Part shown: positions 5,529-61,986 of the stretch, piece by piece | Numbering within the stretch: the first letter of the stretch is position 1 | How the letters are laid out: every line of letters begins with the position of its first letter | Notes under the pieces: generated by a model | The model's database searches: none | Told to the model about the DNA's origin: nothing | Seen by the model: the letters and a program-made list of their open reading frames with translations, nothing else | Translations under genes and position numbers: made by a program | Assembly (NCBI GenBank): GCA_003116875.1 | Contig: BCKT01000022.1 | Location: 87,827-151,826, forward strand | Origin: Takashimella koratensis | Lineage: Eukaryota > Basidiomycota > Tremellomycetes > Trichosporonales > Tetragoniomycetaceae | Direction of reading: 5' to 3' | DNA length: 64,000 nt

Positions 5529-5535
5529 ATTTTAT
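5529..5535 (-). promoter_or_regulatory. TATA box of A3
   Basis: TATAAAA on the minus strand, 83 nt upstream of the A3 ATG. Confidence 0.5.
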
Positions 5536-5559
5536 ATTCACAAAACTTGGGGGGGAGGG

Positions 5560-5562
<3 letters not shown>

Positions 5563-5597
<35 letters not shown>
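5563..5597. repeat. Poly-G tract (35 G)
   Basis: Uninterrupted run of 35 G, preceded by G-rich sequence broken by single A bases. It lies in the region upstream of A3. Confidence 0.9.
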
Positions 5598-5599
<2 letters not shown>

Positions 5600-5677
5600 G
5601 ACAGAGCAGGTGCACCGACAACACTCCAAAAGCTGATGTGTCACCTTTGACACGCTCTCACCTATAATACTCTTAAC

Positions 5678-5686
5678 CTCCTTTCA
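5678..5686 (-). promoter_or_regulatory. TGAAAGGAG element, copy 2
   Basis: Reverse-complement copy (CTCCTTTCA on the plus strand), about 235 nt upstream of the A3 ATG. Confidence 0.45.
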
Positions 5687-6133
5687 TGATCATCACCATT
5701 GTGTTACCTTTCACGAGCATCGGCAACGTCGGCTTATCGCTTATCGACGGAGGAGCTCATGAACGGAGCAAAAACGTTTCAGACGTCGACGCGGTTTAGG
5801 CCGGTAGTCGTGGGTGCTTTACCGCGCTGAGCTGGTTATGCGGCTATGCACGGTACTGCTCAGTGCTCTTCCGGCTCAGCTTGCCCCTCTACTGTATCCC
5901 ATCTCGTCTTCCAAGACTGACACACACTGTCCCTCCTGTCAGCAAACTTCGGCAGGGATGTACTCTTCTCAGCCACGAAAAGATATTTGGGAGTATCAGC
6001 AGCAGAGTTTCCTGGATAGAAGCGTCGTAGATGTAAAGGGTTGTGGGTTGCAAGAGGCTACGAGGGCGCGACAGAGAAAGAATGATGCATGTAAGAACTC
6101 AGCCTGCCGTTCTGGGTCAAAGGCAGAAGCTAA

Positions 6134-7249: not shown

Positions 7250-8026
7250 TAAATACCCCAAGTCCTCATGCAACTTCACCACACACACGCACCTCTCCGA
7301 CGAGTCATTTGTCGCCTGACCTTCAGCCCTCACGCCTCTACACGCAGGCTTACGACTTGGCCGGTCGATATCCTTTCAGCAGCCTAGAAAGCGTCTCACT
7401 CGTCGAGTAGACCCGAGGTGAACGAAGTGAGGGCTCAGGTCTGGTGCCCTATAGCGGTCCGGCTGTATGGGTCTGCGAGACTGTCCTGAGCAAGCTATGA
7501 CTCTTGAGCTGCTCGAGTTGTAAAGGAGGTAGCCGAGTACAATCCCCCTCGCCTTCTTGCCGTCCTCCACGCTGACTCATCCCCTCTCTCTTTCCGTACA
7601 TCCCTCAACCCCCTCATCCCCAGCCCAAAGTCGACCGAGTTAATCCCCACGAAGGCTTCGAACAAAAGCCGAACGAGGCGAACCACGCAAGGCGGCTACA
7701 CCATTTCCCGACCCCCCCTCGCCTTCTCGCACTCTTCACGGCCGCCCGCCATCTGGGTCACGTTCGGCCGAGAACGTCGACTGCAGGCCGGCGACAGACC
7801 CTCGGCGACATTTCCGAGTCGACACGGCCGATGCGCCGACCAACGCGCAACTGTTAACGGGCGGTCGTCAATGAGCGAGGGAGATCCACCCCGTTAGTAC
7901 GATGAGAACAAGGAAAAGGTCGGCCGAGCTTGTAATATTAGTAAAGTAGATAAGAACCGACACTATGGGGTCGATGCATAGCAAGGATTTGCAAGTCCCA
8001 AGGTCGTATGAGACATCGACAACCGA
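7250..8026. other. Gap between A4 and MIP1
   Basis: It contains the A4 promoter and the 3' flank of MIP1. Short frames on both strands have no recognisable product. Confidence 0.5.
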
Positions 8027-12844: not shown

Positions 12845-13092
12845 GGAGGAGAAGGGAGGGAGTTGGTCGAGCTGGATGTGGTTAGATGAGGTCCATGGGT
12901 GGTGCTGAGGTGAGATCAAGGTGAGATGTCCAGAGGTGAGATTGGCCACCCGTCTATGCTGAAAACATCAAATGCACATCGGAGCGGAAGCAAATCTGGC
13001 TGATTTTGGCCTTTGGTCGGCTAGGGTCACGTCACGGTCAGTCCGCCTCCTGCCTCCTGCCTCTTCTCCATCCTCCACATCAAGCACAAGCA

Positions 13093-30515: not shown

Positions 30516-33500
30516 CTACTGTGTCATGTTGGATTTTCTCATTCGCTGCTTTGCGACAGCTTGACTCACCTTGTTCTTAACCGTCGTGAGGAACTGAGCA
30601 TAGCTACTCATCCTATCCATCCTATCCTCAATGAGCAAGCTCAGTGCCCAACTCCTTAGCGCTGGTTCTGCGTCGCTCTTCACGACATATAGGTGCGGCC
30701 TGTACACTCCTCTCCTCAATTCACGAGTCTTCGCTACCACCGCGTTGACACGCTGGTTGAATGGGTTGTCCAATTGCGGAAGGGTAAACTTCCCACCCGT
30801 CAATTCGGCGTAACCAGGCAAGTCGAAGACGTCTTGTACGAGTCGGGGGACAGCCTCGTGGCCGACCCAGAGGAAGATGTTTTGACCGTCTTCGATCAGG
30901 TAGAGACCGTGGCGCTCGAGTTTCTCCGAAGTGAGGTTGAGAGGAGGAGGGAGAATGACACCCCGGTCGCCGATGGTTCCCGCCTCGGGGGGCATGTTGT
31001 GCAGCGAGTAAAAGCGAGGGTGGATGTAAGGCACAAGAGCCTGGCAAGGGAGGGTGGTGAGGAGGCAGAGAGCGTACGCGCGAAGATCCGGTGGGATCGT
31101 CGAGCCTTCTCGAAGTCCAACGTGCTTCACCAGCGCAGCCATGAGCAGCGGCAAGAGCGCGAGGTTGGAAGGGAACGCCAACTGAGCCGACGCGCCAGCC
31201 GACCCCGCAATCTGGTTCTTGAAAACCGACATCATATCACCCAGCTTGTTGACGATGAGGGTACGGGCTTCCTCAAGCGAAGAACCGATCGCCTTCTCGG
31301 CAGACTTTTGGACGAGGTACGCCGCGATAGCAATCTGGTCCGCGCCCGCATACATCTCTGCCACCGAGTCGGTCGTCGGCAGCGCCTGGGTGATGACTCG
31401 AATCCGCCGCTCGCCGTAGCACGTGGTATGCAGGATAGCCGTCTGGATCACCACCGTGGCGGCCTTGATATCGTCCTCGAGCTGGAGCTCGATCACGTAG
31501 TTCTGGTCCGTGGGGACGGTCGGGAGCGCGAGTAAGTCACTCGCCCGGTGGAAGAAGTTGCCGTGGAACGCGCTCTGTCGGATCCCGCGAGACGCACGGA
31601 CTCGGATAACGGCCTCGGACCCGATCGGCATCGCAAGGACTTTACCAAACTCGGCAGCAAACTTGATCGCATCCTCGGCGCGCGAAGCGTTGAATCCCGG
31701 GTACAGATAGGTCTGGCCAGCAAGGTAACGCGGGAGGCAGCTGAGCGTGGCCACGTCCGTGTACGACGCGGCGAAGAGGAACATGTCAATCGAGACATGC
31801 TTGCTGGAACAGTCGACCGCGAACGTCTTGTAAAAGTTGTTCTGCGCCTGGAGGAGCGTCGACTCTTTGCTTGTCCCGAGTAATTTGGGGTCGTCACGCG
31901 CCTTGAGCGCGGCATGGCCAAGCGTTGGCAAGCTACCGCAGAGCGCGATGATCTTGCCTCCAATTTTGTTGATCAGTTCGAACGCCGACTGGAGCGCCGA
32001 GCCGAGCGCATTACCGACGACGTTGGACTCCTGGAACATGTCGCTAAGTCGGTTAAGCAGGTTCTCGATCGCTGGGCGGGACTCGGTGAGATTAACGAGC
32101 AGGTCGACGGGCTTGGGCAAGAAGACGTCGGCGAGATCCGAGACGACGAGCATCGATGGCTCCGACGACCCCGCGGGGAGGGAGAAGAAATGCAAGCTGG
32201 TAGAGACGGCAATGAACGCGACCTTGGTCCGGTTGTCCGCGTTGGGCAAGTTGTCGAGGTTTTCGAGAATCGTTCGCGCGGCAGTCGCGACCATACCTGA
32301 CTGGATCGCGGCCTGCGAAACGTCGATCACAAAGCAGTAGACCGAGGGTTGAGGCGGTCGGACCATGTACTCTGTCGGCGCGACAAACTCGACGACCGAG
32401 TGAGTGAGCTCCTTGCGTGAGAATCGATCGGCGGGTTTGTTCTCGGCCTGGTTCCAGTCAAAGAGCTGGGGGACCTCATTACTCAAACCACACATGCAAC
32501 ACTTCCACCTGTTCCCGCCCTCGATAAACGTCACGAAAGGGTTGATGTACGCGCGGCATCGGCGACATCGAGCGATGATAGTGTCGCTCACCACGGCCAC
32601 GGGGTCGTCGCCGTCGCTCTCGCGGTACGATCGGTAGGGAGCCATGACGAGCGCGAGCGGGAGCTTGGACTTGTTCAACAGCGACTGCGTGGTAGGGACA
32701 GAGGTGAGCGTGCATCGCTGGTACGATGGGTCCGGGATGTTGTGCGGGGACGGGATGATCGCCGCGTTGGAAGCGAGGAACGTGGGTGGAGGAGGCGCGT
32801 CGAGACCCTCGACGTTGGGTTGCAGGCCGATGAGATTGATGGTGGACATTTGGTGAAGTTGCTTTTGCTCGGCGTATCCACCTGCCGCGGCACCGACTGG
32901 CGCGCCGTAGCCTGCGGCTGGCCGGCCGCCGACGCTGCCCGCACCACCGACGTTCATCTGGCCAAATTGGTTCGCGACCTGGTCGACACCGTACGCCGGC
33001 TGCTGGCCCTGGTAGCCCCCGCCGTAGCCTCCGGCCCCCTGCGGTGCTCCCCCGGCGACCGGCTGCTGCTGCCCGTACGCCGCGGCGCCCGCGTCCTGTG
33101 CCTGCATCTGGCCGGGCGTAAAGAACTGAGGCGAGAAACCCGGATCAGAGTATCCAGCTTGGGCAGGTTGGCCGTTGACGTCGTATCCGGGCCCGCCGGA
33201 TGCAGCGCCCGCAGCAGCACCACCGGCGCCGCCGTAGACCTGCTGCATCTGCGCGACGGGGTACTGTCTCCGTCCTGGGCGGTGAGACGAGGCCGGCGCG
33301 GCAGACGGGTCACCGGCACCCGGTGGTGGAGACTGCGAAGGGTGGGACGTAGGGTAGGTCGGTTGTGTAGGGGGCTCCCATTGTGATTGGCCCGTCGCTT
33401 GGTCTGGGGAGGGAAGTCAGTAGCTGGACGCGATGAGGTAGGTGGCAAGGGTTGGAGGGACGTGTGAAAGGAGCTGGCGATGAGATGGTTCGCGTACTGA

Positions 33501-45068: not shown

Positions 45069-47790
45069 TCACCTCGCACGATCGAGGACATCCAACAACG
45101 CATTCGCGCCTGTGCACACATCAATACTCCCACTCCCTTCGGCCAGATCCCTCAACCTCGATTTAAGCTGATACGGCTGCAACAAATCCACAACCGCCTG
45201 CCTGGGCCGGTGCGTCCTCGAGCTCGACTCGACGAGGTGGCGTAGTGCCCGGAGGGCGGCCGACTTGGCGTCGTCTGAGGATCGGGAGAGCGCCGAGGAT
45301 AGAGTCTCGATGAGGTCGAGTCGGGAAGTCAAAGAGGATCGGAGTCGATCCGTTCCCAAAGCCAGGTTGGAGATGATCAGGATCGCCTAGAGTTGTTAAA
45401 AGGGGGTGACGTTAGCCCTCAAAATCATTTGGATCCACAGGGGAGACAAAGACGTACCGGGACGAAAATTTCGTTGTCTGATTCTTTGGCTGCAGCTTCC
45501 ACGAGGTCAAGCAAAGGACGTTCCCCAAAGTTATCAACGAACCGAGAAATCTCGGCAATCGTCATCTCCGATAAAGTGTTCTGAACCACCACGAGCACTT
45601 GAGCACGCTGACCTGGCGGTGTTTCGCGCGACATGAGCCTGTTCACAAAAGCAAAGAACAAGGCCGAACGCCAAACAAATTCAGTGTCAGCGCTGGGGAC
45701 TTCACATGGAACAATCCAAGTCTGAGCTCACCGCTTAATCCGCTCCAGACCTAGACCCTGGATGATCTGCGCCTTGTCCGATTCCGAAGCTTGGTACGAC
45801 ATATTCTTGAGTGCCCAGAGCGCGTTGATGGTTAGCGGCTCGTGTGGCGTCAGACTAAGCTTGACGAGCATCGGTATCCCGCCGTCACGTATAAGCGCTC
45901 CCCGAAGGGGTGAAAAGTTGACGACGAGGTTACAGATCATGGCTGTCGCCGCCTCTTCGACGGTGTATCCGCTCGCTCCGCGGTCAAGAAGAGACTCCAA
46001 GGGCCCGTCCATCCCTGATCCCGGTGCCTCTTCGGTGCCAGGTGGTGTGTCCCAGCTGGCAACCTCGCGGCGAAGGGTAGCAATGACTTCTTGTCCGACC
46101 CCGCTATCGATCAGGCTCGTTCGTAGGATCGCCGTGGCCCGGCTGAGCGCACGGGCGAGCTGACATGCTGCCGCTCGGACGCCATACGAAGGGTGGCTCA
46201 GCGCGGCTTTGAGGCGAGGGAGGAACGCCGGACTCGCTTCAGCGATCAAAGTGCGTGTCCCGTCGTGTTGGAACGCCAAGGAAGCGAGAGCGAGGATACA
46301 AGCTTCTCGAGTCTTGGCGGATGTGTCGGACCCCATTGTCCCGGCTTCCTCGGCTGCATCGAGCTTGTTCAGAGCCTGCAAGAGAAGCGCGGGGCAGCCT
46401 TGCTCAGCACCGAGCTCTTGCAACTTCTTGTCATCGGACACGAGCGTCGCTACAGAGGTATTAGAGAGAGGATATTCCAAGTAGCATGGGATGGACAGTT
46501 AGGATACGTACAGAGCACAAAGCAGAGTTTCGTGTGAAAGTACTCATTCTGCAACAGCTTGACGATCGCTTCGAGTAGCTGCTGGCTGATAGCCCTGGAT
46601 CGAGCCTTGTTTGGTCCCCTGTCCGCTTTGACCACATCTGTCAAGCTGTTGAAGGACCTCGTTGTCAGTTGAAGAAGAACAGTTGATCCCCGGGCAACTC
46701 ACCACGACGCTGCAGCTACGCGAACACTCGTTGGGCCCGATTGCACCAGATCCAGCAAGTAGTCCAGCAGATCTTCATCGTTCTCCAGTCTGAAAGCACG
46801 TACGACGGCCGCCGTCGCTGGTTGACCGTACACGAGCGCGCCCACGAGGTCAAGCGCAGCCTCGATGACTTTGGGGTTGGTCGGTGCGGTGATGGTATAC
46901 AGGAGGTGATCGAGGAGGAAGGGCTTGCCGGATGGAGGGGCCCATTCAGCCAGCGCGAGGCGGTGACTGGGCAGGATGGTGAGGCCTGCCAGGAGTTGGT
47001 AGAGTGGGAGAAGAGTTTGCGAGTCGGGATGAATGTAAATGAGGTACATCAATGCTGAGAGTGTGTCCGGCTGCATCCAGGTCAGCTAACAGCTTGCGTT
47101 TCCAGCAGCAGACTCACCTCAAACACCAGCCCGAGGACACGCGAAGCCTCGGATCGGTAGTCAAGCCTCTCCACCTGCTTCCCCTTGGACGAGACCACGT
47201 CGTTGCCCACCAGTCCTGTGCCCACGAGCTTCCCTTCGACCCCGACCCCCCACTTGTGACCCCACACCATATCCGTCGTCGCTTGCAGCACGTTGCGAAG
47301 CGCGCGGAGCGCGGGCGCGAGGACCTTTGTCGTGCTGGGTGAGCTGGCAGCGCCGGATAGCGCGCAAATGAGGTCGAGTAGCCGAGAGGGAGCGGACGCG
47401 AGGAGGAGGGGTTTGAGGGTAAGTGCACCAACTAGAGGTCATTAGCTCGTCGTCTCGGCCAGGATGAAAAATTCAAAGCTTACCACTAGCAAGTGTGCCG
47501 ATGATGACGGTCGTTTCAGACACGATCTCGGCAGACCCCGAGGAGAGGAGCGACAGCAGACTGTATCACCATGCAATACACAGCTGGCGTGAGCTTCCAT
47601 CTCTAGCTTCAATGGCAAGAGTCAGGCAGGGCACCTACGTATCGAGCAGTTCCGAGTCGTCGGCTATGTCGACTTTCTTCCAGGTATTCCCAATGACTGC
47701 ATTTTTGAGGTCCTTGAGCACAGCGAGCTGCGAGTCGGACCCCGAGAGACCCTTGAGCGCCTGTACGGTGGACTGTGAGGATGCTGCCAT
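45069..47790 (-). CDS. VID28: GID/CTLH E3 ligase armadillo subunit (VID28/GID5, ARMC8)
   Basis: Armadillo-repeat scaffold of the GID/CTLH ubiquitin ligase, which in yeast recruits substrate receptors that target gluconeogenic enzymes. It starts at the ATG at 47790 (MAASSQSTVQALKG). The early LKDLKNAVIGNTWKK matches the family's N-terminal signature. Armadillo-like helices follow in several exons, including EAIVKLLQNEYFHTKLCF, LSHPSYGVRAAACQLARALS, TAMICNLVVNFSPLRGALI and PLTINALWALKNMSYQ. The stop is at 45069. Introns are short with canonical signals. Its target enzymes are not nearby apart from aldolase, 12 kb away, for which I draw no link. Its 5' end lies 170 nt from the stop of orphan gene C1. 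Confidence 0.85.
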
Positions 47791-47960: not shown

Positions 47961-48661
47961 TCACACATCGACAGGAAGTTCGTACGCCGAGTCAGAACAG
48001 GCGACCAAGCTCGAGAGGGGTGCCGACCTAGTCCCGTTCAAGGACGAAGGACAGCAGGTCGAGCGACTTGATCGGTTCTTCGGAACCAAATTCAACTTGA
48101 TGATGTACCACAAACCCGCGCTGAAATCTTCGGAATCGAACATCCTGAGAGAAATTTCCATCAATCTAAACTCGAGACCCTCCCCGCATTTAGTTTCAAT
48201 CTCCTCCTTGAGGTTTTGTATGTTGTACTCCTCAGAGTCAGCGGTCAAAGAGCTCAGATCTAACACTTTCACCGCCTCGAGGTTTTCCAGCGAGTAGCTG
48301 GCCGCAGCTTGAGGATCGACTTCGCGCACCGAGAAGTGGGGCGGAGGAAGTGATAACAGGTAAAGTCGCTCGCGGTGAAAGTTGTTGTGGAGGAGACACA
48401 CATTGGGACTAGGAGTCAGCGTCAACAGAAACTCACTGACCACGTAAGGCCCGACTTGATCGGTTTCGAATTCTGATCCCAAGTAGGACCTAGTGACTTC
48501 CAGAGTCACCGGTCCATCATCCCACCACATAAGCTTCCCCATCTCCTCCTCACTGGTCACGCCGTTTAACAAAACTCCGCGGGTTGTAACAATGTCAGTT
48601 CCGGTCAGAATCAATCCTCAGAGAGCTTACATTTCTCGAGGCGCCTTCCCGGGCGCGACAT
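47961..48661 (-). CDS. C1: orphan family C protein
   Basis: Two exons, 48661-48631 and 48574-47961. The first codes for ten residues (MSRPGRRLEK) and ends in phase 1; the codon across the intron is Phe (T|TT). A GPVTLEVTRS strand, PPPHFSV, the YSLENLEAVKVLD block and a GLEFRLMEISL strand follow, ending near KLNLVPKN and a Ser/Cys-rich tail. These blocks recur, divergent, in C2, C3, C5 and C6. The acceptor is GAG rather than YAG, so the first join is less sure. About 215 aa, with no signal peptide. Family not recognised; alternating hydrophobic strands suggest a beta-rich fold (inference). Confidence 0.6.
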
Positions 48662-48941
48662 GAGGTGATTGTTGTGGTTGCCGCGACAAGGAATGGTGGT
48701 CCAGAGGAAGAGTAGGTTGGTGAGAAAGTAAGCAGTCCCGATATTCGTGAGCAGTATTTCGCTGTTGGTGATATGACGGATAAGTGTTTGAAGGAATGAA
48801 GTCCCCCAGAATCAGAGTGGTTGGGTTGCAGGGTGGCGGCGAATAGCTGAAGAGCGCATGTTCGCTCTTTAGCGGGAAGGCCAGAGACCTGCTGCTCATT
48901 CGTACGACACGCCTGATGTGAAGGAGGACGGGAGGGGTGAA

Positions 48942-48950
48942 TGAAAGGAG
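48942..48950 (+). promoter_or_regulatory. TGAAAGGAG element, copy 3
   Basis: Exact copy, about 285 nt upstream of the C1 ATG. Confidence 0.45.
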
Positions 48951-49224
48951 GTATGCCTGTTCGGCGACAGAGGGTGAGAGTGGACAAGAGAAGGCCAGAG
49001 AATATGCCTGGGTAAGGGGGGTTTGCTGTGGGGTTCGGAGGGGGAGGTGGAGAGGTGGCACTGTGCGCAATGATTATCACCCTCGGAAAACTCTGCATCC
49101 TGAACAAACCCCGTACTCAAACCGAATCAAACATGTACAAAACCCGGAGGGGAACAGAAATGGGACTCGAAATGGGGCGTCGACAGGACCCCGGGGGATC
49201 CGTGGGGAGGTAGGAGAGGGGTCG

Positions 49225-49924
49225 TCAGGTGGGGCCGCCGGTGAGGCTTTTGGGGACGAGCTTGAAATGGAGAGTGTAGCAAAGGAGGTGGCCCTCGGGG
49301 ATAATTTCGAAGGATTCGATATGAGTCTTGTCGCCCGACTCATCGAACGATTCAAGTTTGATCTTGGTCCACTTGAATTCGTGATTCTCACCTTCCGAAT
49401 CTTCGATCTTCTTGTTGAGATCCTGCTGGTAGTATTCCGGGTCATACTGACATTCGGGGTCGTGAACCAAGTCTCGCGAGTCGTAATAGGGGTCTCGCAC
49501 TTCGACGCCCTCCAGGTTGGCCACAGGGTATGTGGCAGAGATTTGGGAATCGTTTTCGCCAACCGAGAAAACTGGGGTGGCGCGGTCGGCTTCAAGTAGA
49601 GGTGGCTTTTGTCGTACCCTTCGGGCGTCTCACCCAAGCTGGTGCCGGTGTCGATCGTGAGACTTCCCAGGATATCGCAGACCACGTAGAAGTTGTTGTC
49701 GTCGGACTGGTCTTGGTGGATTTCCGAAGTGGAGAATTGACGCGAGACCTCCAAGGTCACTTCGTCTTTGCCCTCCCGAGAACCCAAGCGAGCGAAGCCC
49801 AGGAGTAGGAGTTGGCAACACCTTTCAATCCAACTGTCCAAGCAGCAATAAGGTTAGGGTCAATCTTGGAGATAGATAAAAAGTACTCACAGATGTGCCT
49901 ACGGTGAACCGTGCGATCTGACAT
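49225..49924 (-). CDS. C2: orphan family C protein
   Basis: First exon 49924-49891 (MSDRTVHRRHI), phase 1, with Phe (T|TT) across a 57-nt intron; the next exon starts at 49833 with GLKG. A second intron (GTGTTG...GGCAAAG) would join this directly to DEVTLEVSRQF in frame; without it there is a frame break. A third intron (49571-49633, GTGAGA...CCCCAG) restores frame between GTSL and VFSVGENDSQ. The C-terminal block YPVANLEGVEVRD, then HEFKWTKIKLE and LHFKLVPKS, matches C1, C5 and C6. Many acidic residues (DPYYDSRD, EDSEGE) give an acidic middle. The exact structure of the second exon is uncertain. Confidence 0.55.
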
Positions 49925-50058
49925 GTGGAGCAAAGCGTTGTTATTGGCGATGAGTAGGTGTAGTAACATCAAAAAGTCAGAGTAATTCAAAACGAGTCGA
50001 AGTGGGCTCTTGAACTACGTTGAGTGTTGCGTTTGCAGGCTATGTGGTGGAGCTGGAA

Positions 50059-50067
50059 TGAAAGGAG
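50059..50067 (+). promoter_or_regulatory. TGAAAGGAG element, copy 4
   Basis: Exact copy, about 140 nt upstream of the C2 ATG. Confidence 0.45.
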
Positions 50068-50950
50068 GGAATTATACAGTAGTCAGGCGGACTGAGGGGC
50101 AGAAGTTGTGAAAGGGCTGGTGAAAACTCCCAGCGGGCTTTGAATTTGTTCAAACGAGGTTTTTTCTACCTCGAGGACGGCAATAACAACCCATTCGCTC
50201 ACTCCACAGCGAGAGGTCCAGAACCCTGCTATTGGTGGGACAGACTTACATCTGTAAGTGGTTTCTGACGAAGTTGAAATGTTCGCGTGGTGCTGTACGT
50301 GCTGGTGTTTGAGGCAAAAGTGAGAATTTCGCGTAGCCAGAGATCAAAAAGGCTATGAGTCTGACTCACTTGCAGCATGCACCTACTGCGAAGGCAGTGG
50401 AGCCGAGTTAAAAGGAGGGGCCCCTATTCTGACAAGAGGCTGCATGTGAATGGATGAGCCAAAGTCTAGGCCTCTTGCAGATCTTCATGCTACCTCTTTT
50501 GTTGAGATGAGCGAGTGCATGTCGCACGTTCATGCCATGTCGAGGTGCTTGAGAGTTCATGCACGCCTCTGGGGGAGGGTGGGGGAGGGTGAGATCGAGA
50601 GTGAAAGGTTGTGCCTCTTTCCTATGTATGAGGGTGAGACTGAATGTGAGAGGCAGACAAAGGAGAAAAAACGAACTGCTGTCTAGGTGGCTCAACGACT
50701 TGTAACGACTTGTAGGGGTTGGTAGGGGAGGGAACAGACAGAGCTGGGAAGAGGAGGGGCAGGGTCATTCGAGTTGCGGGTATACTGTCCATTGACGAAC
50801 GACGAGGAGCTCAACACCGTCAGTCAGCTGACAGAGCATTGGACATCAACGCAATTGAGACGACTGCATGCCATGTCCAGAATAAACCTCATGTACTTGA
50901 CCCCTCCGCCGACCATCTGCTTCCCTTTTCGTCTCCATGTCCCTTCGCCA

Positions 50951-51920
50951 TCATTCAAGCTCCCTCGTGTCCAGCACACATAGCTGTATGGAGAGTGTAG
51001 ATACTGTCAAACTCGAGCAGGTCCTAGAGAGGAAGGATGACCACCTGAGTCGATGCCCCTCTTTCACCCTCGTCGGCTCTTCCTTTGGCTTCAAGCCGAA
51101 TTTCAACCTCCAGAGGAACCCGCTCGCTGATTCTGTGTCGTCTTTCGCCGGGGTACTGACGGATTTGCCGCGTGTGATCTTGACGCGCCTCTCGAGGCTC
51201 TCGATGACTTCCTCGTGGGGTCGGACTTCGTCAGCGTGGAGGTTGATTGCATCTTCGCCGCCTTCCTCGCTGTCTTCGTGAAAAGCGTTGTCGGCTTCGG
51301 GGATCTCGGTCTTGTGTTTCGGAGGGGTGAACTCAACAGCATCGAGCACGAATGTGCGATTCTCGCAATTGCGGATGTGCTTGCGCAAATCCTCAGCGGT
51401 GTACTGGCCGTTGTTGAGGACCTGTGTCTCTGCGAGATGCGAGGCAGAGTATTCGATGATGGGCAAGGAGGACGTGCTTTTGTAGACTCCCTCAGTCTGG
51501 GTGACCGACACCCCAAGGCTGATGTTTCCGTGAGTCGTCTCTCGCAGGAAACGAGTGAAAACGAAGAAAAGCTCCGGAGAGTCGTCGGTCTCAGCGGAAT
51601 GTTGCACCGGAACCGGTATCTGAGGGTAGACGACGAGTTCGGTCTCCGGTTCCGTCGTGATTCCGGTCTTGGACTCAGTCACGGGTCTGGTGTTGGGGTC
51701 AAGAAAGGCGCCGATTTGCATTTGACGGTGAGCTTCGCACGCACGTTGGAGCCTAGCGAGAACCCTTTCGGGATAACTAACCAAAACGCTCACGTTAACT
51801 GTGGACAGTCGATGGACTGGGATACTTACACTCGAAAGAGGAAGGGGCGACACTCAGGGCATCAGTTGGCGCAGTCACGCTGATAGACGGTGCAGTGGTG
51901 GCGTTCGATTGTTCATTCAT
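50951..51920 (-). CDS. C3: orphan family C protein with ambiguous reading frame
   Basis: First exon 51920-51830 (MNEQSNATTAPS...), phase 1. The best intron is 53 nt (to 51777), giving Phe (T|TT) and the family motif FIPKGFSLGSN. That frame stops after about 30 residues, while the similarity continues in another frame: FFVFTRFLRETTHG aligns with FFISSFLKTTSHG of C4, and YSASHLAETQVL and FVLDAVEF with other members. A 123-nt second intron (GTGCGT...CCTCAG) would restore frame; otherwise it is a frameshift. The C-terminal part is longer than in relatives, acidic, and ends near RLKFGLKPKEEP. The last 30 residues of the frame may be read through an intron. Confidence 0.5.
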
Positions 51921-52480
51921 GGTTTGGTTGGTCGTGAAGCCGTGTGAATACTGGAGCAGTAATGTTGTAAGATCAAGAGCACGATAGGGGTCTTTGTCTT
52001 CATGTACCACTCTGATGAAAGTTAGGACTCCACTGCCGACGTAGCAGCTACAGAGAGCGTAACAGGCCCAAGCAACATTGAGACCCATTATCTTTTATTT
52101 GTTGATCGAGTAATGCACCCCTTCAAAACAACAAGACTTGTGAAGCAGGTGACGACGAGGAGCGTCTGTCTCACTGGGAAATAAAGGAAAGGCGCAAGGT
52201 CTGAGACCTTGCCGACTCGGCTGACTCAGCTCCCTCTTTCTCTGGTCGTCCGCCTTTTCCCGCCTTCTCCTTTCCGGCCTCCTTCACCAACAGCGCCCCG
52301 TCAGCGCACGGGCTGGTCTAGCTTCAATGACACCTGAGCGTGGTTTGCTGTTGTTATGAATACGTTGACAGGACGAAGTGGCACTTGTACAGTATCCACA
52401 CAGGCGTCCCAGAAATAAGGGGACATTCGGAAGAGAGTAGATACTATCTGCATGAAAATGTTTGTATCTAAAGTCGCTTC

Positions 52481-53140
52481 CTATGGCAATTGCGAAAAGA
52501 TGGAGGTAATCGCCCTGTCCAACAATTGGCCAGCAAAGGTAGAGAGTGTTGGCAAGGGAACCTCAACCGGGTCTGGAACTTGACCTGTCTTGAAGTATAA
52601 AGCGCGATTGGCGTAGAAGGTCGGGTCACCGTCCACAACCCGCGAGATATCGGTGAGTTCCACCTTGCTGAGCCAGAAGGGGCCTTTGACACTCTCGTTT
52701 ATGACAAAAGACTTTCCAGTGGGATCAGTGTCGAGCATCTCTTTGACTTTGTCAAGAGAGTAGGAGATGCGAATATTAGACCTCTCAGTGCTCAGATTGT
52801 CGATAATTATCTTGCCAGGCTCCCGTCGCTCAGTTTCCATATTGCTCAAAGCGAAGCCGCTCTCACCATGGCTCGTCGTCTTGAGGAATGAACTGATGAA
52901 AAAAGTCTTAGTGATTTCTCCCCCATTGAAGAGGGCTGTCAGCCAGTGGTTGAACGTCTTCGAGACCGGAGTCGGTTGCTCGGTGCGAATACATAACGTG
53001 GGGTCATCACTTGGACCAAAGACTGAAGCCAACTCGTTGGAGGTCACAGGTAGACCTGGTGGAACATCTATGACGAAAGTCAGTGCTCTGAATTCTCCGG
53101 AAGAGGACTGACATTGTGTTGTATATTGACTCGATTCCAT
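52481..53140 (-). CDS. C4: orphan family C protein
   Basis: ATG at 53140 (MESSQYTTQ). A 45-nt intron (GTCAGT, CTGAC branch site, CATAG) ends the tiny first exon in phase 1 and rebuilds Tyr (T|AT), followed by VPPGLPVTSN, matching FIPKGFSLGSN of C3. The intron is a multiple of three without stops, so the unspliced frame is also open. Later blocks are TEQPTPVSKTF, FFISSFLKTTSHG, a basic/acidic middle, SFVINESVKGPFWLSKVELT, and a C terminus ending LDRAITSIFSQLP. About 205 aa when spliced. No signal peptide. Two tandem TTGRAAGGAGTGAC-like repeats lie in its promoter (53267-53294). Confidence 0.6.
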   Translation of the reverse strand: MESSQYTTQCQSSSGEFRALTFVIDVPPGLPVTSNELASVFGPSDDPTLCIRTEQPTPVSKTFNHWLTALFNGGEITKTFFISSFLKTTSHGESGFALSNMETERREPGKIIIDNLSTERSNIRISYSLDKVKEMLDTDPTGKSFVINESVKGPFWLSKVELTDISRVVDGDPTFYANRALYFKTGQVPDPVEVPLPTLSTFAGQLLDRAITSIFSQLP

Positions 53141-53281
53141 TGCAATGAGTGCAGCTGAAGACGAAGCGCGTTTGACTTTGGATAAACGAAAGCACCTTGG
53201 GTTATATGTCTTGCAGATTTTTGTCTGCCTGCGACGTAAGTCGAGGCAGCTGGGGACGAAGTCCATTGGAAAGGAGTGACT

Positions 53282-53290
53282 TGAAAGGAG
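53282..53290 (+). promoter_or_regulatory. TGAAAGGAG element, copy 5, in a tandem repeat
   Basis: Exact copy about 145 nt upstream of the C4 ATG; it forms the second unit of a directly repeated sequence (TTGGAAAGGAGTGAC then TTGAAAGGAGTGAC). Confidence 0.5.
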
Positions 53291-53991
53291 TGACTCATAT
53301 TCAAAGGAAAAGTCGATTTGGCAGACCGGCTGATCGCTACAATGTCTCACCGATACCCAGGCATGAGCTGTACTGTGCAGCGCCGTTGAAGTGCACGGTC
53401 GGAAAAACAATGCGGGCTCTGATCACGAGAAAAGGAATGTCGGGAGGAGGCCGAGACCGGACTGTGTTGTCCTTTCTCTTGCGGTGGGACAATGGAGAAA
53501 AGCCGAGAGAGGTGTGAATGGGTCGCGACCACCATACCTTCTCCACTTTTTCCCCACAAGCTGTGGTGTGGGTGAATGGCTTATGATGCGCCAGACAAAG
53601 GCGATCAACGGACGAGTGGAACATTTGGGAGCAATAGATACACAACGACCTTCTTTGTGGAGCAAAAACTGCTCTTCTCCTCCGCTCTCAGCCTACAGCA
53701 CTTCCAGCGTGCCCCTTGCCCCTCCCACAAAAGAGGCAGCATAGCCTGATGAGCCTGTCGATTGCTGTTCAGCGCATCTCGACTCTTCTCATGCACCCCA
53801 GAAAGTTAGCGTTCCACACCCGCTTACAGACGACCCAAGCAGGACAAAAAGAATGCACGCTCTACACATGGAAATAGCCCTGAGGATCCGTACCCCGATT
53901 GTACTCAGCAATGTTGTGTAAATACTGCATATTTTCAAGGTCTCTACGTGTGACGGATGTGAAGAAGATGTCATCGGACTCCATGACTGAT

Positions 53992-54585
53992 TCAAGGACT
54001 TGCCCCAGAGAGTTCAGTCGCCGAGCACAGCTTGAACGTGAGTACGGGGCTGAGGTCTGGGTACACGTCAAAAGAGGGCGGAACGAAGAAAGAGACTGAT
54101 TCCAAGCGAAACGCTTCACCGATACTTGATTTCAGGGAGGCCTCCAAATTCATGATGACGTAAGCCTCCTCCTCGTCGCTGTCGACGTCGTCTCCGACCT
54201 CCAGTACCTGGACACCATTGAGCTGCCAAATTGGGTATTGGATGTTTAGCTTGGGGTAATGAGTCAGTGTTACAAAATCCTTAGGATTGTCGGGAAGAGT
54301 TGAGAACAGGAAAAGGCAGTCGTCAGGGTTGGTTGTGTACTTGAGGAACTCGCAGGATAAGACAACATTTCCATTCTCGAGCTTCTTAACAGTGACAGCC
54401 GTTTTCGAATGGACAGTCAACGTTGCCTCTTGCTTGGACGCTGTGAGCTCGGCAATCCATTTGGACGCGACAGTCAACCCCTTCGGAATGACTAAGGGTG
54501 GATTTCGTCAGCGCGACTGTATTGAGGGGTGAGCAAATGTCGAACTCTCACACTTGTAATAGGAGTCTGAATCGTTAGCGCTCAT
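53992..54585 (-). CDS. C5: orphan family C protein
   Basis: Tiny first exon from the ATG at 54585 (MSANDSDSYYK), phase 1. The intron ends CCCTTAG, and Phe (T|TC) is rebuilt, followed by IPKGLTVASKW, which matches the C3 motif. The second exon carries EATLTVHSK, VVLSCEFLKY, LFLFSTLP, YPIWQLNGVQVLE, an acidic loop, EAFRLESVSFFVPPSFDVY and LTFKLCSATE, then the stop. About 175 aa. This is one of the cleanest members: two exons, one uninterrupted frame and every family block present. Function unknown. The repeated DE-rich loop between two strand-like segments is a family trait. Confidence 0.65.
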
Positions 54586-55562
54586 TTCAAGTGCCGTTGT
54601 TTGCGGCAGAGGTACACAAGGTGGATATACGAAAACGGTAGAGAGATTTAAACCTCTCCTTGCGTCGTATTCGCTTGCTCTCGAAATGAGTGGGACCGGG
54701 TGGAGGTGGATACGGGAGCTTTTTCGGTTCGAAGGCGAGCCGGGTGGGTATATCCACACCGTATTGAGCGGCAACGCCTTCGCGGAGCATCTATTACCAC
54801 CGCTTTCCACCTTTGTGGGGGTTAGTTTGTTGCCGTGAGACCCCTTTCTAGCGTATTCGCCTTCGAGAGCGGCGTTGTCGACATTTCTTTCGCTCAACCG
54901 ATTTTCCGCGCTCAAAGCATCAGCATGGCTGCCACAAAGTCGCCTGCAGGCGCGATAAAAAGAGGGGAGTATTGGGAGTAACACTGCCTAGCAGTACTGT
55001 AATTATTTGTGCCGCAAGCACAAACATAGCGACAAAAGCACCCACGAAGGGTTCATCATCTCCACTAACGGCGTGACTTGATTGCAACCTCATGTATAGG
55101 CTCAAATCGAGTGTCTGCAACCTATTACATCTGTGCAAGTCTGACACCTCGCTCAGGAAGTAGTTCCTTCAATGAGTTGCTCTATTCCACCAATGTGTAT
55201 GTAAACAGTGACAGCCTTGTCCGCGCTGCCGTGGCTGTGCAAGTATGCAACGCCTGCTGGTTTTCCAACTGGCCGAGATCCATCCGCACCAGTTGAACTT
55301 GGCCGGGTACCAGGAGGTACGATCGGGAGGGACAACCCCATCCCCCTCGTGCCGCCAACCAGTCACGGTGCATGTTACATCAAGCTAAGAATACATCAAT
55401 CACAGAAGAGACACCAAGCGAGCACCATAGATCTGCATAAGCTGTACCCCGGTGCAACAGAGCCATGCATGTGTATGATGAGACTGACTTCCATGTGAGT
55501 CGCAAATAGAACGATTGACACTGCACACCTTGTCTTCATGTACTCAGCGCAGCTGCCTCAGA
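54586..55562. other. Intergenic region upstream of C5
   Basis: I see no supported gene. A long open frame on the minus strand (54508-54984) reads through the C5 first exon, but it lacks family similarity upstream of the C5 ATG. Confidence 0.45.
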
Positions 55563-55829
55563 CTAGCCACTTGATGAAAGTAGCTTAAACTTGAGTGTGG
55601 GATTGAACTTCTTGAAGCCCCAGGAAGGTATGTAGAAATCCACTGTTTCCAAACGAAAGGCTTGACCACGATCAGGTATTGATTGAAGGGCAATCCTCAA
55701 GTCCTGCGTGACGTAAGTGCTTTCTCCCCCTTTCTTGCCCCCCTCCGCGATCACCTCCACGCCTTCGAGGTGGTCAATAGAGTGCGGACTGAATCTGAAA
55801 CCGCTACGCTTCTGCTCCGATACTTGCAC
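55563..55829 (-). pseudogene. C6: partial orphan family C copy
   Basis: Only the C-terminal half of the family is clear: HSIDHLEGVEVIAEG, a YVTQDLRIAL helix, GQAFRLETVDFYIPS and a final LKFKLLSSSG, very close to C5. The upstream boundary given is a non-ATG codon. Sequence at 55830-56150 shows short segments that may be remains of the N-terminal half (for example VYIKGAS), but no ATG plus intron like those of the relatives. Either an unrecognised exon structure or a 5'-truncated copy. Confidence 0.5.
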
Positions 55830-56181
55830 CTTTGATATACACCTTTGGCTTAGGGATCGGTCTCAACGGAAGAGGTTTCGGGGATAGGTGAAGCCCGGCG
55901 CAGTCGACTTCCTTTGTACTCAAGCTGCACCTCTGAGCTTGCCGCCCGAGCTCGGACACCGAGCTGCCAGCGGCCTAAGGCAAAGGAGAAGGGTCTTGGG
56001 GCAAGCACAAGCCATCAGTACCGTCGACAGCCTCTTAACAAAAGCGACTCCAGTAGGGAACCGCAACTTGAGCCTCACCACATTTTGCATGACTGCATCA
56101 CCAGCCTCGTCTCTGGTAATGAGGGCTAGTCCGAGCAAGCTATGGATTCCGAGCAGGTCTTAAGGCTGATTAGGAAAAATA

Positions 56182-57145
56182 TCATACACCAGGGTATATC
56201 GCTCCGCTGCGTAGCTTTCGGAGGTAAAGGTCGGGATCATCCACAGAGTTGTCCAGCTTGTCAGAGTCAGGCTCGGGAAGACTTGCGTTCCTGCCTACAT
56301 TGGGCTCGAAGGAAAACACGAGTTCCCACTTGACGGGGTTGTAGACCTTGTTAGTCGAAACTACTCGCATGTCGCCCCATTTTTCTTGCTCGTGGTGCGT
56401 GATCACTGGATCGAGCATGTGCTCACGGCTTTCCCCTGTGCAATCGGGGACAAAGCCCAGACAGTCAGTCAGCCGTAGTTTTCCATCGGCTAGTTTGACA
56501 GAGCAACCTTGCCTCAAAAGGAAGCTGTCGATGGTCATGATGAATTCGGGGTGCTTCTCGGCGTTGTAAAAGATAGACACAGGGAACTTGTCTCGGCCTA
56601 GTCCTGAAGCTGTCCATAAACCTCCGCGACGTTGACCTGTGGTCGCGAGGACTTCTCTGTAACCAAATAGGGAGTCGGGAAGGGCCAGGATCATCCCATT
56701 ATGCGTGGTCTCGTCGAGGGCCGAGGAGTCGATCATGTACTGGGAGGGAATAGTCACGTCCGCTTTTGATTCAGTGTTGTCCTCGCTGACAATCCTCGCC
56801 GACAATATCCTCTTCGGTCTTGCCTTCGTCGGTGTTGTCGTCCTTATGGGGCTTGTCAATCTCATACGTCTTATGTGTGAGAGATCCGCTCATGCTCCTC
56901 TCGTCCGGCGGGCAGATGCGGAATTCTACCAGTCTGCCATCTTCCACCTTGATCTTGGTTAAAAAATACTTCTGCTTCCCGTGTCCAACTTGGATGACTG
57001 ATGATTTCAGGGTAGGCAGTGGCCGGGAAGATATCAGCGAGAGACGGGTGTAGTGTGGTAAGTACTTACAGGTCTGATGACCGTTGGATGAAGGCGTTGA
57101 TGTGGGCGCCTGCCTGGTTGGGGCGGCCAAGGAGCTTTCTGCCAT
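56182..57145 (-). CDS. B3: orphan family C protein (B subgroup)
   Basis: First exon from the ATG at 57145 (MAESSLAAPTR...), phase 1; Phe (T|TC) is rebuilt and followed by IQVGHG. A KIKVEDGRLVEFRI block follows. The frame then needs a second intron (GTATGA...TTGTCAG, about 82 nt) that joins HKT to EDNTESK and continues as YMIDSSALDETTH, GGLWTASGLG, FPVSIFYN, TIDSFLLRQGC, LRLTDCLGFVPD and WELVFSFEP. B2 shares the IDSFL-x-x-QGC and FVPD motifs, B1 the IDS-x-AL-x-x-TTH motif. About 290 aa, ending in an acidic tail. The second intron is inferred only from frame and similarity. Confidence 0.55.
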
Positions 57146-57277
57146 GCTACTGTATTTGAATGCGAGCGTGAGTATGGATCCTATAGAAGAAAATTGAAGA
57201 CCACAATGAGGCGTTCTTGTCGACTCTGTCAGTGCACCAGCATATCGAGAGCTCTAAGCTGAAACCTCCCAGCCTGC

Positions 57278-57286
57278 TCCTTTCAC
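57278..57286 (-). promoter_or_regulatory. TGAAAGGAG element, copy 6
   Basis: Reverse-complement copy (CTCCTTTCA), about 135 nt upstream of the B3 ATG. Confidence 0.45.
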
Positions 57287-57417
57287 TCGACTTGGGTCAC
57301 CTTTGAGGATAAAAGCCGGGAGCATGGAGCCGGGCAACGAGTCGTCCTTTGCGTTCACCCCCATTGTCCAAGTCTGGCATGTCAAAGGCAATGCAAAAGA
57401 CTGATTTGAGCCCGAAG

Positions 57418-57426
57418 TGAAAGGAG
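57418..57426 (+). promoter_or_regulatory. TGAAAGGAG element, copy 7
   Basis: Second, oppositely oriented copy upstream of B3 (about 275 nt). Confidence 0.4.
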
Positions 57427-57671
57427 AGAAGCCTTGGGATCAGTACGGGTCAATCAGTATAATCACTGGCTATCCTTTCAGCGCGACAACAGCAGTATCC
57501 GCGACATTGTCATCCTATACCTGCATGATCTCTTTGAAAAGCACTGAACGCCCACCAAGAGCAGACCCCTGATGAGGGTAGCTCATACCAGTGTCTAAAC
57601 CGACCTGGTTTCAACCACCCTTAGCTAGGATCTTCTCCGGCCTCCGTACCAGACTCATCCGGGTCCTCACT

Positions 57672-58452
57672 CTATACGTTTACTTCCCTAGGCATGACTG
57701 AGAAGTGGATCTGTGTATGCGCGGGCACAAAGAGCTTGGTTTTAAACGATCCTCGATCGTCGCTTTCCCATGAGCGTTGAGCGTACTCCGGATCCTGGTA
57801 GAATTTCCTGTTTTCGTCTTTCGCGTCAGGAACGAAGACCAAAGCAGCAGTAGCCTTTAGCACTTCATCCGTGATACTGGTCTTGCAACCTTGGGTTTCC
57901 AAGAAACTATCAATCTCCTGGACCAATTCCTTGTATCGCCCAATTGCAAACGTAATAGGTGTCGTAGGAGTGTGCTCATCCTCGCTGTCGTTGTCAAGAC
58001 TTGAGAAAGTCCACAGGCGTCCGCCTGGATGCGTATCCGAGGGGTCAATGTTGTTAAACCTCGGTTCGGCAGAGATTTGAAGCTCTGGCAAACCATGCGA
58101 GGGCGCTTGCTAGTCGTACGAGGTGAGTTTGAGGGTTGGCGCATCAAGTAGGTATTGTGAGTTCCCGTTGGCGTATGTCCTGTGCTTGAGATAGCCGCAC
58201 TTGGTACCAGCCTCAGATGGAATGAGGCGTAGATCCAGTACCCTGCTCTCATGGACACGGACTGACACTGTCAGACCTTGCAGACCTGCAGTATCTGTAT
58301 CAGGTAAGCGAACTGAGCAGGGATGTCAGCTACCTTACCACCTTGTGTCGCAGCAATGTAGATCAACGTGGCTTACACTTTTGTGAGACGATGTTTGAGG
58401 CCACCGAAGGGGTGTCCATTTCTGTTTGGTTCAGTGAAGGGGTTTCTGCCAT
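57672..58452 (-). pseudogene. B2: orphan family C gene with in-frame stop
   Basis: ATG at 58452 (MAETPSLNQTE), close to the B3 start. The phase-1 intron has donor GTAAGC and acceptor ATACAG, and rebuilds Tyr (T|AT). The second exon reads VSVRVHESRVLDLRLIPSEAG and QYLLDAPTLKLTSYD. It then meets a TAG at 58110-58112 and continues in the same frame with LPELQISAEP, GGRLWTFSSLD, EIDSFLETQGC, LVFVPDAKDENR and a final IHFSVMPREVNV. The downstream half is well conserved with B3, so the stop looks recent, or the gene makes only a short product. Confidence 0.55.
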
Positions 58453-58578
58453 GGTGAACAATTGTAATATCGTCCAAGTGGAGAAAAGGTTGCAGGCCAT
58501 GCTCTTTTATCCAGCGCTCGTGTACTCCGGACGTATTTGAGCTGTCATGGTACACCTTTCACGAGCGGTCTCACAAAT

Positions 58579-58587
58579 CTCCTTTCA
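58579..58587 (-). promoter_or_regulatory. TGAAAGGAG element, copy 8
   Basis: Reverse-complement copy, about 130 nt upstream of the B2 ATG. Confidence 0.45.
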
Positions 58588-58738
58588 CGGGCACAAATCA
58601 GCTACCGTGACACTTGTTCAAAAGAGGACGAAAGCGTTCACCGGTGGAGATGAGCGTTCGCCGTAGCGCACTCTCCGAGCTGACGGACTCGACGAGGGGG
58701 GATGGGGGCCGAACCGACAGGCTTATTTGCAGCCGAGT

Positions 58739-58739
<1 letters not shown>

Positions 58740-58772
<33 letters not shown>
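58740..58772. repeat. Poly-G tract (33 G)
   Basis: Uninterrupted run of 33 G between B2 and B1, nearly the same length as the run upstream of A3. Confidence 0.9.
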
Positions 58773-58775
<3 letters not shown>

Positions 58776-58776
58776 G

Positions 58777-58785
58777 TGAAAGGAG
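58777..58785 (+). promoter_or_regulatory. TGAAAGGAG element, copy 9
   Basis: Exact copy four bases after the poly-G tract, about 325 nt upstream of B2. Confidence 0.4.
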
Positions 58786-58923
58786 CCCCGAGGTGAGACC
58801 AGTCGGTAGTGACATCAATAGCTTTCAGGAAGAGTCGCAACAGTCGGGGTGCGGTATGAAGCGAAATGCGATTTGAACATCACCACCACTTACATGTAAC
58901 ATCAAGCGACCTTGCATCAAGTA

Positions 58924-59477
58924 TCATGAGTATTCTACGAGCAACGTTTCATACTGGATAGAGACGGGAGAGTTAGTCTCGCCCAGAGATAAAAACCAGA
59001 GACACCCATGGCCCTCTGGGAAGTTCATGATCGTCAGAGTCACCGGGAGCTTGAGTCGCCGCTGAGTATGCGTGGTCATCTCGAGAGCGGGACTGTCGAT
59101 GAAATACTCGTGGTCTCCAGACTCATTGGTCTTTCGGATAACAAAGTCCGGCTGGGCGTTTAACAGCCCAGGAGCGAACTGGAAATCCAGTAGTTCGCCT
59201 TTATGCAATGTAGTTAGGACTGTAAGAGACCCGTTCTCATGTCCAGGCGGGATGACTAGGGATCGATTGAGGAGGGGGATCGTGGAAGTGTAGGGAAGAA
59301 GTTTAGCGAGAGTCATCTCAATAGTCATCGATAGAGCAGACACTTACAGTGATTACCCCTTTTGGCCGTCCGATATAGCTGCGCCTTCCGAATACTGTAC
59401 AATCGATAACTGGCACTGATTTTCCTTTCACTCGTATGCTGTTGGTAGGGGATTGAGAGGAGCGTTGAGAGAGGCAT
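58924..59477 (-). CDS. B1: short orphan family C protein
   Basis: First exon from the ATG at 59477 (MPLSTLLSIPY), phase 1. The intron (GTAAGT...CCCTAG) rebuilds Phe (T|TC), followed by IPPGHENGSLTVL, the clearest match to C5 (FIPKGLTV). Then GELLDFQFAPG, YFIDSPALEMTTH, GCLWFLSLGE, PVSIQYETLL and a stop at 58924. B2 and B3 continue beyond this point for about 80-100 residues (IDSFL-x-x-QGC and FVPD blocks), so B1 lacks the C-terminal half. The region after the stop holds the poly-G tract and no remnant that I can see. Confidence 0.55.
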
Positions 59478-59860: not shown

Positions 59861-60879
59861 TTAGTTGCGGCCGACGTTGCCGAGGTCCTCGCAGGCGACC
59901 TTGACACGGGCGGCAAGGGTCTTCTCACCCTCACGAACCCAGACACGGGGGTCGTAGCTGCGTCAAATGTCAGTACATGGCTATCGGACGACCAAAGTAC
60001 AGAAGCCATAAATCAACAATACTCACAACTTCTTGTTGGGCTTGTCCTCGCCCTCGGGGTTGCCGACCTGGGACAACAGGTAGTCCTTCTTGTTGAGGAC
60101 AAAGTCACGAACACCGGAGAGGTAAGCGAACTGGGTGTCGGTGTCGACGTTCATCTTGACAACACCGTTCTCGACGGCCGTCTTGATCTCCTCCTTGGAG
60201 GAACCCGAGCCACCGTGGAAGACAAGGAAGCTGTGTCCAGTCAGCTTGATCAACAATTGCCAACGTGAACGACTCAAACAACAACCACAGCAGTCGAGAG
60301 AAACGGGAACTGGGGGTTGAGGGATGTCACACCAATATGACACCCCCTTCCCCACGACCCGCGCATTTTACAGCTGCTCAAAAGGAGCCAGCACGCAGAG
60401 ACAAGCGCCCAGGCAGCAAGGCTGCCCGGCATTGAAGGGTAGGGGAAGCAGGCTCTAAATGTGGTGTAGGATCTATCTTCGCTGACCGGAATCGCCGCCA
60501 ACCTTCATTGGAGGAAGGGACGGCACTGTCTATGTAGGTAGCGTGTGGGGTAGGGGTGGGGTGGAGATAAAAGCGCGAGAGAAGTAAATGCGAGAGGGCT
60601 GAGGCGCCGAAAAAACACAGCAGACGAGACAAGAGTAACGAAAACTTTACTCACAGAGGCTTGCTGTCGGGCTTGCCAATCTGCTCCTCGGCGTAGAGCT
60701 GGTGAGACTGGAGGAGCTCGGGGCGGAGGACGACGTTTCCGGGCTTGTAAACACCGTGGACGTTACCGAAGGCAGCGGCGATGGAGAAGTTGGGGGAGAT
60801 CTTGGAGAGGGCCTCGTGGACGGCGAAGACGTCGGCGGGCTGAGTGTAGAGGGTCGAGTTGTCGGCGCTGGAGTTGTCG

Positions 60880-60911
<32 letters not shown>

Positions 60912-61986
60912 CTCCATCTCGAGCCACTCTGCACACTGTCAGAGCTTGCACACGAAAGACTGGAGGGTGTAGCTCACGGTTCATCTTGGCCATGCGGGTG
61001 AAGTACTTGACACAGTCGGCAATGTTCTCCTCGTGGGTCTCCTCGGAGAGGTCGAGCATGTGGGAGCTGAAGAAATTGCCGGCGGTAAGCTACGTCATCT
61101 TTGGGGAAATGCAGGGTCAAATTTGGGGGGAAGGCTCGCTTACGAGTAAAGGGGCTCGCCGTGCTCCTTGAAGTAAGCCTCGTCGGCGTCGAGGAGACCG
61201 TCGAACCAGGGGAGGAGCTTCTTGGCGCAGTGGTCGGTGTGGAGAACGACGGGGCTGAGCGGGCGTCAGTAGGGTGTTGACTGAAATTTTTGGGGCGTGC
61301 GAAGGGGAAAAAAAAGTTTCCCTCAATCTCGTATCGCTCGTGTAGCTCGTGAGAAGATAACGAAAAAGAAAAGAGAAAGAAAACTTACACGCCGTAGTAA
61401 GGAGCAATGGCACGGATGTAGTGAGCGGCAGCAATGGCACCGGCGATCGAGGCCTCCTGCTTCTCAGTGTTCTTGAGGCCCTTGCCGCCGAAAAAGGCGG
61501 AACCACCCTGCGAGAGCTGGAGGATGATCGGGGACTTGATGTCGCGAGCGGCCTCAAGGGTGGCGTTGACGACCGACGACGAGGTGACGTTCTGAGAAGG
61601 GTTAGTGCTGGGTAAGATGTGAAGATGAAGAGGGGAAGGTTGAGCGATGAGGGTGAAAGGGGCAGGTACTCACGATGGCCTGGGTGAGAAATTCCCAAGA
61701 AAAGGGGTCAGGTCAGTATTTCGTTAGAACATAGTTGTCAAGCAGGTCGCTCTGGACATACCGGGATAGCGTACTGGAGATCTCCGTCAGCTCCTGCTTG
61801 ATGTTATGGGAACAGCCGTCAGACTCACCTGGTACTTCTTGGCGTGCTCGAAGAGCTTGCGCACGTTGTCACCAGTGATGACACCGGCCTGGAGAAGGGA
61901 GCAGTAGTGTTAGTGCAGGTTCTCTCTGCAATCTGGGAGATGACGAGGGGGATGCTCACGGGGACGATGGAGAGAGCGCCAGACAT
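59861..61986 (-). CDS. FBA1: Fructose-bisphosphate aldolase, class II
   Basis: Zinc-dependent cleavage of fructose 1,6-bisphosphate in glycolysis and the reverse step in gluconeogenesis; cytosolic. Ten exons: 61986-61960, 61888-61829, 61773-61762, 61679-61674, 61591-61389, 61254-61144, 61066-60978, 60928-60655, 60230-60027, 59957-59861. Conserved parts are AGVITGDNVRKLF, AIPAINVTSSS, QLSQGGSAFFGGKG, the zinc-binding HTDHCAKK, LEMEIGITGGEEDGVDN, FGNVHGVYKPGNV, FHGGSGS and NVDTDTQFA. The C terminus is a normal DPRVWVREGEKTLA ending. Length, about 360 aa, is typical. The third and fourth exons are only 12 and 6 nt; without them the invariant AIPAI segment would be lost. Intron signals are canonical throughout. 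Confidence 0.96.

Follow-up and report, generated by a model that had tools for sequence, protein, structure and literature searches.

A 64,000-nucleotide (nt) stretch of the Takashimella koratensis genome (hereafter the window; contig BCKT01000022.1, positions 87,827 to 151,826) carries at positions 47961-59477 an array of nine consecutive minus-strand loci, named C1-C6, B3, B2 and B1, whose relationships and state of preservation are analysed here. The array runs from the stop codon of C1 (47961) to the ATG of B1 (59477). A preliminary description of this DNA had placed nine consecutive minus-strand genes here; the nine loci, their common strand and the exact end points hold, but fewer than nine of the genes are intact. 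Each locus was translated in three frames, and spliced models were built for eight of them (Table 1). Intact one-intron genes are present at C1, C4 and C5, and breaks or truncation affect four of the nine loci (C2, B2, B1 and C6). As judged from a shared first intron and from short sequence blocks that pass a shuffle test, the B and C groups of loci belong to one family.

Table 1. Loci of the array, with the phase-1 first intron and the product length (amino acids, aa) where the models give them
Locus	Positions	Strand	Phase-1 intron	Product	Condition
C1	47961..48661	-	48630-48575	214 aa	intact (spliced model); exon 1 48661-48631; acceptor GAG
C2	49225..49924	-	49890-49834		frame broken downstream (49578-49769, 49228-49575); probable pseudogene
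C3	50951..51920	-	51829-51777		end reached only with a second intron, e.g. 51744-51620
C4	52481..53140	-	53112-53068 (45 nt)	204 aa	intact
C5	53992..54585	-	54551-54492	177 aa	intact (spliced model)
C6	55563..55796	-			fragment, C-terminal half only
B3	56182..57145	-	57069-56998	269 aa	second intron needed, e.g. 56867-56786, which gives the stated length
B2	57692..58452	-	58376-58313		in-frame TAG 58112-58110; probable pseudogene
B1	58924..59477	-	59347-59256	153 aa	lacks the domain's C-terminal half

Some of these models admit alternatives. One formal single-intron solution exists for C2, at the cost of conserved sequence, and the in-frame TAG of B2 is skipped by 12 formal intron solutions. 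For the second intron there are several alternatives at each locus concerned, with 12 (C3) and 18 (B3) formal GT-AG solutions of 40-159 nt. The short C4 intron is free of stop codons, so that the unspliced C4 frame is open too, and neither exon 1 nor the N-terminal half of C6 was seen in the translations or in a profile scan. Assembly error was considered as the source of the frame breaks. It is unlikely as a general cause, since long frames of 1646 aa (8027-12967) and 966 aa (SEC24; 30516-33416) run uninterrupted through the same window, although a single-base error could still explain the break at any one locus.

In the spliced models the first intron is in phase 1 at all eight loci that retain a 5′ exon, and at all eight it interrupts a T|TY or T|AY codon, which encodes the aromatic residue (F or Y) that opens the domain. 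If the three phases are equally likely, the chance of eight loci agreeing is 1 in 2187, a figure that takes phase alone, before codon type and position are considered. When a strong donor and a YAG acceptor were required, six of the eight loci offered a single donor-acceptor pair. C4 offered two pairs, both in phase 1, and C1, owing to its acceptor, offered none; its intron is the sole open solution once the filter is removed. The filter was chosen after the sites had been seen, and admits a GTCAG donor that only C4 uses. This evidence of kinship from gene structure goes beyond the motifs of the preliminary description.

The motifs themselves were also borne out: the common start, the S-x-x-L-x-x-T-T-H block and the C-terminal strand are all present, and the first two lie above chance by the shuffle test. 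The start, F-[IV]-P-x-G, is weaker in C1, C2, B2 and B3, and S-x-x-L-x-x-T-T-H is the second common block. The C-terminal strand was found at seven loci (KLNLVPK in C1, FKLVPK in C2, FGLKPK in C3, FKLCSA in C5, FKLLSS in C6, FSFEPN in B3 and FSVMPR in B2); it was not seen in C4 and is missing from B1, which ends earlier. Six sets of overlapping membership, each made up of single members from groups that pairwise search leaves unjoined, were scanned without guidance for the best ungapped block, at the one width of 13 residues. The scan returned F-[IV]-P-x-G from one set and the S-x-x-L-x-x-T-T-H block from five, and in each of the six overlapping sets the block score was matched by none of 60 shuffles.

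Pairwise comparison with phmmer, in which 484 frames of the window from outside the array served as decoys, separated the members into the groups C1-C2-C5-C6 and B1-B2-B3. Within the first, C1 matched C2 with an expectation value (E) of 1.5e-7 and C5 matched C6 with E 6.4e-8; the C1-C5 link was found from both sides (E 9.3e-4 from C1, 4.5e-4 from C5). Within the second, the 3′ piece of B3 matched B2 (E 1.1e-12) and B1 (E 3.1e-4), and B2 was linked to B1.

Several results weigh against a single family. No link between the B and C groups appeared in pairwise phmmer or in profile comparison, also after the groups had been cleaned up. C3 and C4 stayed unjoined to the other members (best phmmer E 0.7-0.9), and the profile value for C3, E 0.11, was no better than that of an exon of the neighbouring gene FBA1, at 0.10. 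One decoy reached E 0.051 against C5 in phmmer, the other decoys giving 0.3 or weaker, and the block score of the set C3, C4 and B3 was 78, against a shuffle maximum of 77. The splice choices were moreover made with the motif known, though the filter test leaves them nearly forced. The array might then consist of unrelated genes, or of chance open frames, grouped by eye, a reading that draws on the very low identity between groups and on the failed profile tests. It would leave both the intron common to eight of eight loci and the outcome of the shuffle test to coincidence, and we regard it as extremely improbable; for chance open frames, these same two observations rule the explanation out. 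Because the two groups have the phase-1 intron in common, and because the blocks were recovered, we place B and C in one family, and the earlier view of the array as one divergent family is upheld by the sequence evidence.

The preliminary description had also read the low identity as fast divergence and had suggested diversifying selection. Tandem copies are 26-45% identical over aligned segments. We made Nei-Gojobori counts of the proportions of nonsynonymous (pN) and synonymous (pS) differences for seven pairs, six of which include a broken or truncated member. pN was below pS in all seven pairs, and pS was saturated in five. The two measurable pairs gave dN/dS (nonsynonymous over synonymous divergence) of 0.53/1.03 and 0.69/1.87, each with a broken member in the pair. 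The local alignments favour conserved segments, and averages of this kind leave positive selection at single sites possible. Within these segment averages there is no detectable sign of diversifying selection, and that suggestion is not upheld. The low identity stands, but speed alone does not account for it: since pS is saturated in five of the seven pairs, age contributes as well. With pN below pS throughout, pS mostly saturated and the dN/dS values of the two measurable pairs as they are, the copies appear from their sequences to be old and weakly constrained.

These figures bear on two serious rivals. The array may be decaying and mostly functionless, a set of duplicates that a once-useful gene left behind, among which one or a few are still active. 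The damage at C2, B2, B1 and C6 fits such a history, as do the two measurable dN/dS values, which we judge high for well constrained genes, although both pairs contain a broken member. Set against this are the open frames and splice sites kept in C1, C4 and C5, and in particular the open frame of C1 despite saturated synonymous change to both C2 and C5. We regard general decay as a distinct possibility, if short of an even chance. The other rival is an arms race or genetic conflict, in which the copies would track changing targets in non-self recognition, in defence against viruses or transposons, or as a selfish element. The low identity of the tandem copies and their frequent damage would suit it, and so would the outcome of the searches, in which those C members that were compared with public data had no homologue and no copy was found outside the locus. 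However, pN remains below pS in every pair, with pS saturated in five and no averaged sign of positive selection, and the proteins show neither a known domain that passes the cut-off nor a membrane segment; a conflict-driven origin seems to us rather unlikely, though it has to be taken seriously.

Common descent followed by birth-and-death evolution of a local tandem family is, on present sequence evidence, the probable explanation of the array. It is supported by the common intron, by the blocks, by the matches within each group, by the adjacency of nine loci on one strand with genome searches by six members leading back to the array (one weak match apart), by pN below pS in all seven pairs, and by the damage to four of nine loci beside uninterrupted long frames. 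Both the common ancestry and the adjacent copies, damaged ones included, that mark a tandem birth-and-death family are found. In the ancestor a phase-1 intron, placed within an aromatic codon, would have separated a first exon that was short, polar and variable from a second one encoding a domain of 160-200 residues, probably rich in beta strands. Repeated local tandem duplication would have produced the nine-locus array, and the old copies would since have been subject to birth and death, some staying intact under weak purifying selection and some decaying in place.

As the preliminary description had it, the products show no recognised domain: no Pfam family scored above cut-off in any member, the one match below it being DUF7104 for a piece of B2 (E 0.1; 12.9 bits, where the cut-off is 26.1). 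NCBIfam gave only three sub-cut-off matches for eight pieces (best E 0.0044; 16.8 bits, cut-off 310), and a sequence search of the PDB gave nothing convincing for A1, A2 or C1 (best E 0.38, 0.64 and 0.058, respectively). AlphaFold2 models stayed below usable confidence, with a mean predicted local distance difference test score (pLDDT) of 44.1 for C5 from a seven-row alignment and of 38.8 for C1 from a four-row alignment, and the lack of a fold from either model is a point against the family reading. The C1 model rises to pLDDT 60-65 only at residues 121-140 and 161-170, which cover a helix and portions of two strands. Foldseek with the low-confidence C5 model returned 103 matches at E <= 10 and none at E <= 0.001. 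From the residue pattern, and from these low-confidence models, the domain is probably beta-rich.

Six proteins were examined for hydropathy by simple averages, without a dedicated predictor. No membrane segment was found (largest 19-residue Kyte-Doolittle mean 1.18), nor, by this crude test, any signal-peptide-like start of the kind expected in a small secreted effector (maximum N-terminal 10-residue means 0.37-1.23), in agreement with the earlier description, in which neither was recognised. The isoelectric point is 4.5-5.6 in five of the six and 7.1 in B1. Since hydropathy is low, signal-peptide-like starts are missing and five of six proteins are acidic, the products are predicted to be soluble, intracellular and mostly acidic.

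A tempting identification by eye is the nucleoplasmin-like (NPL) domain, PF17800. If the domain were a very diverged NPL jelly roll, the array would encode histone-chaperone-like proteins. The order and spacing of the strands in C5 and B1 look NPL-like by eye, and in C5 the last of these strands is followed by an acidic stretch. The only NPL gene found in the genome (locus L009, contig C8:44425-44919), whose domain carries a long acidic insertion, likewise has its first intron after the first aromatic residue. That intron, however, follows the first tryptophan in phase 0, as placed by eye, whereas the first introns of the array are in phase 1. No member has a Pfam NPL match, and with a home-made four-row NPL model the pieces of the array ranked in the midst of shuffles and decoys: 10 of the 12 were listed, the highest in place 43 among 807 entries listed from 1096 targets. 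The array proteins also continue beyond the supposed domain into a further conserved helix-strand-strand part. With no profile support and with a different intron phase, the NPL identification was rejected, and we consider it highly unlikely.

What the proteins do can be proposed only tentatively. The function that we judge the likeliest, and to which we still attach low confidence from sequence, is that each product would be a small binding or recognition module; copies would differ in their partner, and the diversity of copies would itself be the useful property. Against this, nothing in the data indicates a partner or a process. It is improbable, further, that the domain represents a previously undescribed fold or recognition domain, serving this fungal lineage in a locally diversified set for intracellular recognition, for example of mobile elements, viruses or non-self.

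Protein searches of the genome with C5, the 3′ piece of B3, C4, C1, B1 and C3 found the array only, apart from one weak match of C3 on another contig (E 0.32, locus L021), which shows no array block by eye; the search scores only the best candidates and ignores introns, and C2, C6 and B2 were not among the queries. The exon-junction pattern occurs at seven places in the genome, against one for the reversed pattern. Three of the seven are C3, C5 and B1, and the other four (L011-L014) have no family block downstream, as judged by eye. In public databases of about 5.8 billion proteins, C5 had no homologue at E <= 10 among 52 candidates, and the C alignment A1 none at E <= 1 among 3251 candidates; B members were not searched. 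This null result is only moderately strong, because the search needs common 5-residue words and just five of the 36 array pairs share any. As a control, the SEC24 frame found 1599 relatives among 7992 scored candidates in the same database, many from Tremellomycetes. Among the matches listed, the best named was Cryptotrichosporon argae (75% over 98% of the query), followed by Kwoniella, Cryptococcus, Vanrija, Cutaneotrichosporon, Tremella and others; further relatives listed had 79% over 85% and 81% over 67%, and none of the best 120 of the 1599 exceeded 81%. By these matches the host probably belongs to or near the Trichosporonales or Tremellales, its own SEC24 not being among those 120. An abstract-level search of the literature yielded no account that we recognised as this locus or family.

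On one side the array is flanked by a gene with Arm (E 4.8e-9) and HEAT repeats by Pfam (45731-46498). This is the gene to which the preliminary description gave the name VID28. On the other side lies FBA1, and here the identification as a class II fructose-bisphosphate aldolase was confirmed by Pfam (PF01116, E 5.9e-15, 60654-60917). A run of about 40 C nucleotides, visible in the printed sequence, lies between B2 and B1 (approximately 58732-58771). The window end (64000) coincides with the end of the 151,826-base contig; no telomere repeats were seen by eye in the last 401 bases, and a subtelomeric position is thus without support.

The window contains a second tandem group of orphan frames on the minus strand, at 329-7375, which continues before the window start (L026, 8090-9447). 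Its frames at 4521-5108 and 6134-7375 are homologous (E 1e-19), and a weak homology links 329-1159 to 2127-3074 (E 2e-4). The frame at 329-1159 has further relatives immediately ahead of the window start (E 3e-16 and 5e-10). The second group has no Pfam match above cut-off, and the pieces of the main array have no relative in it at E <= 0.05. Local families that diverge in arrays may therefore be frequent in this genome, and the main array is less exceptional for it.

Lineage-restricted tandem multigene families that evolve by birth and death are a known general kind. The array resembles them in occupying one locus on one strand, in its mixture of intact and damaged copies, in low identity and in lacking a known domain. 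It differs in that positive selection was not detected, and its restriction to a lineage is only a candidate feature. The family is genuine and, in evolutionary terms, of an ordinary type. A precedent for the method, and for the method only, is provided by the bicycle genes of aphids, putative plant gall effectors that form a very divergent family and for which gene structure served as evidence of homology where sequence search is weak (PMC9168663). The array proteins differ in having no signal-peptide-like N-terminus by the crude hydropathy test.

Once a family has diverged beyond the reach of profiles, it can easily be overlooked, or its members annotated as single genes with no relation to each other. 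In the present case the conserved intron phase links genes that the profile tests used here leave unjoined. This gives a practical way to look for orthologues in related fungi, with the exon junction and the two blocks as the targets of a search between VID28 and FBA1. If the copies are recognition proteins, the locus would be a ready-made diversity set; if they are not, it would be a clear-cut example of birth and death in a tandem family.

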